A stretch of 37,531 nucleotides of DNA, from NCBI GenBank assembly GCA_021324685.1, contig JAJPIQ010000053.1, forward strand, positions 1 through 37,531, in the 5' to 3' direction. Positions 31,940 to 34,690 of the stretch are shown piece by piece. Both the position numbers and the translations under genes were made by a program. The stretch's first letter is position 1, and the number at the start of each line of letters is the position of its first letter. The DNA comes from Bacteroidota bacterium. Its GTDB lineage: Bacteria > Bacteroidota > Ignavibacteria > Palsa-1295. The notes under the pieces were generated by a model that saw only the letters and a list, made by a program, of their open reading frames with translations, had not been told where the DNA came from and made no database searches.

Positions 31940-33277
31940 TTGGAAGAGTCCGTCAATATCAGTCATGAGCCTGGCGAAGGCAATTACCTCCTCGGAGTTA
32001 GCCGGCGCATTCATTTTACACGAGCGGCAGCCGTCGGGCTGATGGCCGGGGCGACCGTCGTCGCGTTTTCGCTTTCGTATCAATCGGCCGAGTTCGGAAG
32101 GATTTCACTTCTGCATTGGCTGCATCAGTACCCGTGGTGGGGATGGGCGGTGCTGCCCGTGATCGCGGCCAGTTGCGGAGGCCTTGCGGGATATCTCGTG
32201 GAACGATTCGCGCCGGCCGCTTCCGGTGGTGGCGTGGCGCATATCCGGGCGGTCTTGGCCGGAAAACGGACGCTCAACTGGAAGCAGATCCTGCCCGTGA
32301 AGTTTATCGGTTCCGTCCTCACGCTCGGATCGGGCTTTTCCGTTGGGAACGAAGGTCCGAGCGTCCATATGGCGGCCTGCGCCGGAGAAGCATTTACGGA
32401 CTGGAGCAAACTCGAAGGCCATTCGAAGCGCAGCCTCATGGCTTCGGCGGCCGGTGCCGGCCTCGGCGCGGCATTCAACGCTCCCCTCGCGGGATTTATT
32501 TTTACGATCGAAGAGCTGCAGCGCGATCTCTCTCCACTCACGATCGTTTCGGCGCTGATCGCTTCGGTCGTTTCCGTCGCGCTGAGCCGGGTGCTTACAG
32601 GCCAACTGCCATCGTTTCACATTCGCGATTATCCGCTCCCGCCGCTTACGGCGCTGCCACTCTTTGCCGTCATGGGAATTTTTGCTGGCTATGCCGGCGT
32701 CGCGTACAATCGCGGACTGATCTGGTCGGTAAAATTTTCACGCAGGACTGGCCTCCCGATCTGGAAAAAAGGGGCGATCGCAGGGGCGATCATGGGACTT
32801 GCCGGCTGGTGGCTTCCGGATGCGCTTGGCAGCGGCCACCGCATCGCAGAAAGCGTTTTACGCGGCGACTACACATCGGGAAATATCGTCGGATTTCTTG
32901 TTATTCTTCTCGTGGGGAAATACGTGCTTACGATGATCGGGTATTCTTCCGGCGTTCCCGCCGGCATTTTTGCACCGCTGCTGGTCCTTGGTGCGATCAT
33001 CGGTCAGCTGTTCGGGCATGTAAGTGCACTTATGTTTCCATCTATCGGTACGACTCCAGCGGCGTATGCCGTGGTCTGCATGGCGGCGATGTTTACGGCG
33101 ATTGTCCGTGCGCCGCTGACGGGGATCGTCCTCATTCTTGAAATGACCGGCAACCAGGAACAGCTTTTCGCGCTAATTTTAAGCTGTCTTGTGGCGTATC
33201 TCGTAGCAGAACATGCCAGGTGCGAGCCGATTTATGATAGTTTGCTCAATTTGGAGCTTAAACGCGACCAGGAATGA
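31940..33277 (+). CDS. ClC-family chloride channel or Cl-/H+ antiporter
   Basis: A 445-residue polytopic transporter of the ClC family. The gating motif is seen as GNEGPS (136-141, with E138), and the second, proton-transferring glutamate is present as E192 in FTIEELQRD, favouring a Cl-/H+ antiporter. The first selectivity loop is divergent (ASGGGVAH instead of GSGIP), while the later GVPAGIFAPLL is standard. No cytoplasmic CBS domains follow. No ATG fits the frame near the start; TTG 31940 is used. A TATAAT (31926-31931) lies immediately upstream, so the leader may be very short. It is divergent from the tricorn gene. Confidence 0.9.
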   Translation: MEESVNISHEPGEGNYLLGVSRRIHFTRAAAVGLMAGATVVAFSLSYQSAEFGRISLLHWLHQYPWWGWAVLPVIAASCGGLAGYLVERFAPAASGGGVAHIRAVLAGKRTLNWKQILPVKFIGSVLTLGSGFSVGNEGPSVHMAACAGEAFTDWSKLEGHSKRSLMASAAGAGLGAAFNAPLAGFIFTIEELQRDLSPLTIVSALIASVVSVALSRVLTGQLPSFHIRDYPLPPLTALPLFAVMGIFAGYAGVAYNRGLIWSVKFSRRTGLPIWKKGAIAGAIMGLAGWWLPDALGSGHRIAESVLRGDYTSGNIVGFLVILLVGKYVLTMIGYSSGVPAGIFAPLLVLGAIIGQLFGHVSALMFPSIGTTPAAYAVVCMAAMFTAIVRAPLTGIVLILEMTGNQEQLFALILSCLVAYLVAEHARCEPIYDSLLNLELKRDQE

Positions 33278-33313
33278 ATTCTTGACAGAAAACTATTTTT
33301 TTACGCCTGGGCA

Positions 33314-33345
33314 CTTGCTTTTTTGAAAAAAAAGTTGTATCTTTG
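33314..33345 (+). promoter_or_regulatory. Bacteroidota-type promoter for leader and micropeptide
   Basis: CTTG (33314-33317) and a perfect TAnnTTTG box (TATCTTTG, 33338-33345) are 20 bases apart. Transcription would start near 33352, just after the ClC gene, and run into the leader and the 32-residue ORF. Confidence 0.7.
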
Positions 33346-33351
33346 TGTCAC

Positions 33352-33497
33352 GATGCGGTCGAAGGTGCCACTTCGATTGTGTCTTAGTAGATAGTTTAGT
33401 GCCAAAATCATTTAGTTTTGCCGGGTTTCGACCCTAACGAGGACTGTCCGTCCCCTGGAGTTATCCCGCAAAAGTTTGCCAAAACCAAGGAGTAATT
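33352..33497 (+). promoter_or_regulatory. candidate structured 5' leader, possibly a switch
   Basis: This leader of about 146 bases holds three hairpins: TCGAAG-GTGCCA-CTTCGA (33359-33376), CAAAA/TTTTG (33403-33420) and GGGT-TTCG-ACCC (33423-33434). A mutually exclusive pairing exists: TTTTGC(C)GGG (33416-33425) can bind CCCGCAAAA (33465-33473), which would break the second and third hairpins and bring structure close to the Shine-Dalgarno at 33487. No known riboswitch class is recognised. Confidence 0.5.
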
Positions 33498-33596
33498 ATG
33501 TTTGGAAGACCCGAGGTTTCCACCGGACGCCTTTTCGTGGAAATTGCTTCGTTGCTCTCCGTAATCGTCGCTCTGTCAGCGATCGTCTTACGGTAA
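33498..33596 (+). CDS. 32-residue single-pass membrane micropeptide
   Basis: A 32-residue ORF that starts MFGRPEVSTGRLFVEIASLL and continues SVIVALSAIVLR. It has a soluble 11-residue head and a single hydrophobic helix ending in Arg. It is preceded by an excellent Shine-Dalgarno (AAGGAG, 33487-33492, five bases before ATG), a structured leader and a strong TAnnTTTG promoter, which together argue that it is expressed. No family is recognised. Its position downstream of the ClC gene suggests a membrane partner or regulator, but that is only positional. Confidence 0.65.
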   Translation: MFGRPEVSTGRLFVEIASLLSVIVALSAIVLR

Positions 33597-33637
33597 GCGC
33601 CCTACAACTGTTTTTATAAGTTCAAAACGACCCTATT

Positions 33638-34690
<1,053 letters not shown>

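Follow-up and report, generated by a model that had tools for sequence, protein, structure and literature searches.

The window (the whole stretch of DNA analysed, 37,531 nt; contig 85 of a 3.47-Mb genome) carries between a ClC gene and the gene of the GTPase Obg a short gene for a 32-residue peptide (MFGRPEVSTGRLFVEIASLLSVIVALSAIVLR), which is preceded by a promoter of its own and by a long leader; the coordinates of these elements, and of a candidate small RNA gene on another contig, are compiled in Table 1. The peptide gene is convergent with obg in all seven genomes of the genus, the gap between the two usually amounting to 8-44 nt (about 146 nt in G003). This convergent pair (33498-34630 in the window) is kept in 7/7 genomes and the outer genes differ on both sides: according to the flanks compared, ClC lies upstream of the peptide gene only in the window and in G006, and MazG adjoins obg only in the window. 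Given its own promoter, the convergent obg and a ClC neighbour limited to two genomes, the peptide gene does not belong to an operon with a membrane complex.

Table 1. Features of the micropeptide locus (positions in the window) and of the candidate small RNA gene (positions as genome:contig and as locus).
Feature	Positions	Strand	Remarks
ClC gene	31940-33277		upstream neighbour of the micropeptide promoter
CTATTTT box	33293-33299	+	upstream of the promoter; spacing to the -33 TTG nearly fixed in seven genomes
Promoter TTG-N20-TATCTTTG	33315-33345	+	sigma-ABfr type; same elements in 7/7 genomes
5'-terminal leader hairpin	33352-33383	+	13 bp in the window; first 45 nt beat shuffles
Candidate sRNA pairing site 1, UAGUUUAGU-GCCAAA	33392-33406	+	complementary to the 5' seed; duplex position in the co-fold
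Candidate sRNA pairing site 2 (imperfect), UUUAGUUUUGCC	33411-33422	+	8-nt perfect seed match, GCC after one extra U
Candidate sRNA pairing site 3, AGUUUGCCAAA	33473-33483	+	11-nt perfect seed complement; ends 3 nt before AAGGAG
Shine-Dalgarno-like AAGGAG	33487-33492	+	5 nt before ATG 33498
32-codon gene, predicted single-helix membrane peptide	33498-33596	+	found in 7/7 genomes; pN 0.17 vs pS 0.65; predicted helix 9-31
obg GTPase gene	33638-34630	-	Pfam GTP1_OBG and MMR_HSR1; convergent neighbour in 7/7 genomes
sRNA-like gene, ~85 nt	G000:C15:26784-26886 (L159:1501-1603)	+	covariance model R1; other loci L158, L160-L165

A search with a profile of five sequences matched the peptide in all seven congeneric genomes (E 2e-16 to 1e-21), where its gene is present in single copy; the relatives are 72-84% identical to the window copy, and the residues M1, F2, G3, R4, E6, S8, F13, E15, L19, L20, L26, S27 and L31 are invariant. 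There was no match in six other genomes of the family or in the remaining genomes of a 149-genome sample of the class, and no convincing homologue appeared among 395 genomes of the phylum; a match in G376 (E 0.001) was rejected as a homologue, being partial and interrupted by a stop. Within the genus, synonymous changes prevail (mean pS 0.65 versus pN 0.17 in the seven genomes), with third positions varying in 29 of the 32 codons and second positions in 10 of 32. Judged by this coding pattern, the open reading frame evolves under purifying selection and is a real, genus-conserved gene. The AlphaFold2 model consists of one helix (residues 9-31, mean pLDDT 87) and the hydropathy maximum is 2.4; with fewer than 60 residues and a predicted membrane helix the peptide has the size and the helix expected of a type I toxin. 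It would insert into the membrane. The peptide belongs to no Pfam, NCBIfam or PHROGs family and has no PDB relative. A preliminary description of this DNA had pointed out a short open reading frame with one membrane helix, which the 32 codons, the coding substitutions, the predicted helix and the presence in 7/7 genomes bear out; that neither peptide nor leader might be conserved, which it had named as speaking against its proposal, was checked as well, and conservation was found.

The promoter, called perfect in the same description, was confirmed in the window, and its elements and exact spacing recur in 7/7 genomes: the TTG at 33315-33317 is followed by a 20-nt spacer and by TATCTTTG at 33338-33345, and the distance from TTG to the -7 box is exactly 20 nt in every one of the congeneric genomes (consensus TTG-N20-TATnTT[T/A]G), which fits the sigma-ABfr consensus of Bacteroidota quoted in PMC6847099. 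This promoter type, together with the nearest named matches of the window (a Bacteroidetes MAG and a Candidatus Kapaibacterium MAG), indicates a Bacteroidota of the Kapabacteria type. The box farther upstream reads CTATTT in six genomes and CTGTTT in G001. On the antisense strand of the locus no promoter-like site was detected in 7/7 genomes; a cis-antisense RNA was rejected on these grounds.

The leader comprises 146 nt in the window (33352-33497) and ranges from 108 to 191 nt across the genomes, counted from the end of the -7 box. As a consequence of this variation whole-leader alignments by MAFFT were unreliable, and the conclusions on the leader therefore rest on per-genome tests. An excess of folding over dinucleotide shuffles is limited to the first 45 nt (Stouffer z over 7 genomes -5.3, window z -4.1), where it is driven by three genomes (the window, G006 and G004); the whole window leader shows no such excess (z about -0.9), and the part beyond the 5' hairpin is at chance level (Stouffer z over 7 genomes -1.2, window z +0.4). 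The preliminary description was thus right about a leader of about 146 nt; mutually exclusive pairings within it are not supported because only the first 45 nt exceed the shuffles; likewise, its textbook AAGGAG is present in the window and is missing in G005 and G006. That the leader acts in cis as a riboswitch, a thermometer or a bistable switch, as had been proposed there, is consistent with a genuine 5' hairpin that persists despite sequence changes; however, the leader has no match in Rfam at gathering score, its length and internal sequence vary, and folding past the hairpin does not rise above that of shuffles, so that this explanation is very improbable.

What is conserved in the leaders is unpaired sequence: UAGUUUAGU(U) follows the 5' hairpin, and UUUGCC/UUGCCA occurs further down, with one copy near the ribosome-binding site. 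TTTGCC/TTGCCA was observed 18 times in the seven leaders versus about 1.2 expected. Genome-wide, neither TAGTTTAGTT nor TAGTTTGCC was more frequent in leaders than the reversed patterns that served as controls, and among the k-mers of 191 upstream regions none showed a conspicuous strand bias (background statistics drawn from about 0.38 Mb of genome sequence).

A search of the genus for TAGTTTAGTT exposed a conserved intergenic element whose other strand has the anatomy of a small RNA: UUGGCAAACUAAACUAGAGACUCACC is followed by a hairpin (GAAGCU...AGCUUC), by the terminator GCRCCGGGAGGGCAAACCCGGYGC and by a U-rich stretch. The predicted 5' end is the invariant UUGGCAAACUAAACUA; UGGCAAACUAAACUA is invariant in seven genomes and unpaired in the consensus structure. 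One pair of the terminator stem is compensatory (G-C/A-U, split 3:3), and a U-run lies 3' of the hairpin on this strand only (CTTTTTT in G004, TATTTTTTTTT in G006, CATTTTTTTT in G009); a GC hairpin with a compensatory pair and a U-run on the same strand characterizes it as an intrinsic terminator. The covariance model matched all seven genomes of the genus and, outside it, G009, a member of another genus of the same family; the class sample gave no further matches. Rfam gave no match at gathering score (the best was FinP with 24.1 bits versus a gathering score of 45), and tRNA or tmRNA identity was rejected after negative results with ARAGORN and Rfam. In 7/8 loci a conserved open reading frame of the same direction precedes the element by about 130-145 nt; upstream of the element no TTG-N20-TAnnTTTG match was read off, and a direct repeat of TTGGCA, conserved and 27 nt apart, is present. 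In every genome it lies on a different contig from the peptide gene (e.g. C8 and C15 of about 20 in G005). Based on the comparison of conservation, architecture and strand, the ~85-nt RNA is an undescribed sRNA-like gene. About 1 kb from the G001 locus, a SAM riboswitch (RF00162, 59.9 bits) is present at L098:2617-2749.

Both conserved leader sequences, UAGUUUAGU(U) and UUGCCA, are complementary to one and the same 5' end of this RNA, UUGGCAAACUAAACUA. The RNA was found post hoc by means of the leader motif; its discovery did not draw on the UUGCCA half of the seed match. In 7/7 genomes the seed paired in silico with its own leader better than with 98.5-99.9% of shuffled leaders (each p<=0.015) and likewise against shuffled seeds (each p<=0.014; Stouffer z -8.2 over six genomes for the seed-leader pairing), the p-values not being independent as the genomes are related. 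The antisense strand of the leader paired more weakly with the seed in every genome; the G000 leader ranked ahead of 138 other sampled upstream regions, and its pairing energy was reached by 8 of 4000 random genomic stretches. In windows along the RNA, the longest leader match averaged 11 nt within the first 18 nt and about 5 in the rest, apart from a slight rise to about 7 at the loop of the terminator, GGGCAAAC: leader complementarity is confined to the seed. When the window leader and the 5' half of the RNA were co-folded, the duplex formed at 33392-33406 and the 5' hairpin was kept. The UUGCCA near pairing site 3 is conserved in the relatives. Instead of a pairing site, the shared motif might be a DNA operator, i.e. 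a transcription factor might recognize TAGTTTAGTTTGCCA both within the transcribed leader and where the sRNA gene begins, since the motif overlaps the possible promoter region of that gene with its TTGGCA direct repeat. In the leader, however, the motif is split, UAGUUUAGUU and UUUGCCA standing at separate places, all parts are oriented complementary to the RNA, and the complementarity tracks the unpaired seed of the RNA, which makes an operator unlikely in our estimate.

Because conserved leader sites match the tip of the RNA, the peptide is probably switched by the latter. We therefore propose, with fair though not full confidence, a single-span micropeptide under translational control by an sRNA that is encoded in trans and probably also targets genes of exported proteins. 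The peptide mRNA would be transcribed from its own housekeeping-type promoter with a long 5' leader, and the unpaired 5' seed (UUGGCAAACUAAACUA...) would base-pair with the leader at two to three sites: one directly 3' of the 5' hairpin, in a standby-like position, and another beside the ribosome-binding site in most genomes. Pairing at the standby-like and/or the adjacent site would most likely block ribosome access and thus repress the peptide. Of the two suggestions in the preliminary description, the riboregulated micropeptide is supported in so far as a conserved coding peptide has leader sites complementary to a conserved trans-encoded RNA, and is not supported with regard to alternative leader pairings; the idea of an sRNA that also codes finds no support, since the proposed regulator is a separate gene on another contig. 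If correct, our proposal turns a stretch left blank in the annotation into a testable gene-regulator pair in a Bacteroidota lineage for which the literature searched held no micropeptide work, and offers a new sRNA for which the seed is exactly defined and the target sites are specified, along with a few more genes that may be its targets; moreover, it indicates that regulation in trans can show through conserved unpaired leader motifs rather than through leader folding.

The further candidate targets are of two kinds. An exported-protein gene orthologous in G001 and G002 (L103 and L089, around 1500) has a leader with TAGTTTAGTTTGCCGG and further TTTGCC copies that is predicted to pair with the RNA at -27 and -30 kcal/mol, and is likely a second target by sequence. 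A second exported-protein family (motif PR-ISYQG-L, about 50% identical) has leaders with TAGTTTGCCA or TAGTTTAGTT behind promoter-like sites; the pairing p-values for L135 (G000), L088 (G004) and L092 (G001), all around 1500, were 0.024, 0.17 and 0.004. Hence the RNA, which would act on these leaders as well, is probably not dedicated to the micropeptide, and the matches speak for an envelope-type sRNA regulon rather than for a dedicated type I antitoxin; a toxic peptide is still compatible with them.

By analogy, the pair might be of the type I toxin-antitoxin kind, with a membrane-depolarising peptide in the manner of TisB or HokB and with the RNA as an unlinked antitoxin; the neighbouring obg would echo the link of Obg and HokB in E. 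coli persistence (PMC5349102). The short single-helix peptide, the long leader with a 5' structure and a subsequent unpaired, sRNA-matching stretch as in tisB/IstR-1 (PMC11264685), and the in silico complementarity of seed and leader in 7/7 genomes agree with this. On the other hand, the RNA is encoded neither at nor opposite the peptide locus in any genome, the antisense strand is devoid of a promoter-like site, other targets are likely, the RNA is present in G009, where the peptide was not found (this genome is 67% complete), and single copy and fixed synteny are unlike many type I loci. We consider a dedicated toxin-antitoxin pair rather unlikely; that one unlinked sRNA is both a surface-protein regulator and the "antitoxin" of a TisB-like membrane effector beside obg in this Kapabacteria-type lineage is a speculative combination to which we give somewhat less credit still. 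As to the peptide's own role within the proposed sRNA control, we lean towards an accessory or stress-response membrane protein.

With tisB/IstR-1 of E. coli (PMC11264685) the locus shares a single-helix peptide of about 30 residues, a long leader with 5' structure and unpaired stretch, and an sRNA match upstream of the ribosome-binding site; according to the title of Romilly et al. 2019 (cited in PMC11264685), the tisB standby site consists of a 5' structure element and a single-stranded region. Unlike in that system, the candidate sRNA is encoded at an unlinked locus and probably acts on further targets, the micropeptide leader also has a site adjacent to the ribosome-binding site, and neither sequence similarity nor LexA-type control of the micropeptide is known. 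The aapA1/IsoA1 and aapA3/IsoA3 pairs of Helicobacter (PMC6733600) likewise combine a membrane peptide of about 30 residues and a regulated leader with control at the RNA level (here predicted); there, however, an antisense RNA overlapping in cis serves as antitoxin and the Shine-Dalgarno sequence is masked by metastable hairpins, whereas at the present locus neither an antisense promoter-like site nor excess folding near the ribosome-binding site was found. The RNA resembles the FopS/GibS sRNAs of Bacteroides (PMC11697453) in its occurrence in Bacteroidota, a single-stranded 5' seed, an intrinsic terminator and surface or exported-protein targets (here predicted), but differs from that multicopy family by its single copy, another seed and sequence, an added internal hairpin and the missing Rfam match. 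CydX, KdpF and AcrZ (PMC4325964, PMC7267776) are also short single-span membrane proteins under purifying selection; in contrast to these, the micropeptide is genus-restricted, shows no sequence similarity to them and is not in an operon with a membrane complex.

Copies of the motif were also encountered elsewhere. In L120 / L147 (G000:C83, about 40008-40039) the leader of a small open reading frame (MTPNEIAQKVIARA...) contains two TAGTTTGCC copies at a distance of 23 nt. The leader of a gene starting MRLRKL... has, in four genomes (L077, L085, L090 and L093, around 1500), AACTAAACTA just before the ATG, which is the seed itself and not its complement. In L105 (G004, around 1500), TAGTTTAGTTT is situated 41 nt upstream of a gene starting MNIRIQVRHEAAREAIQKYI..., which may be that of a ribosome hibernation factor.
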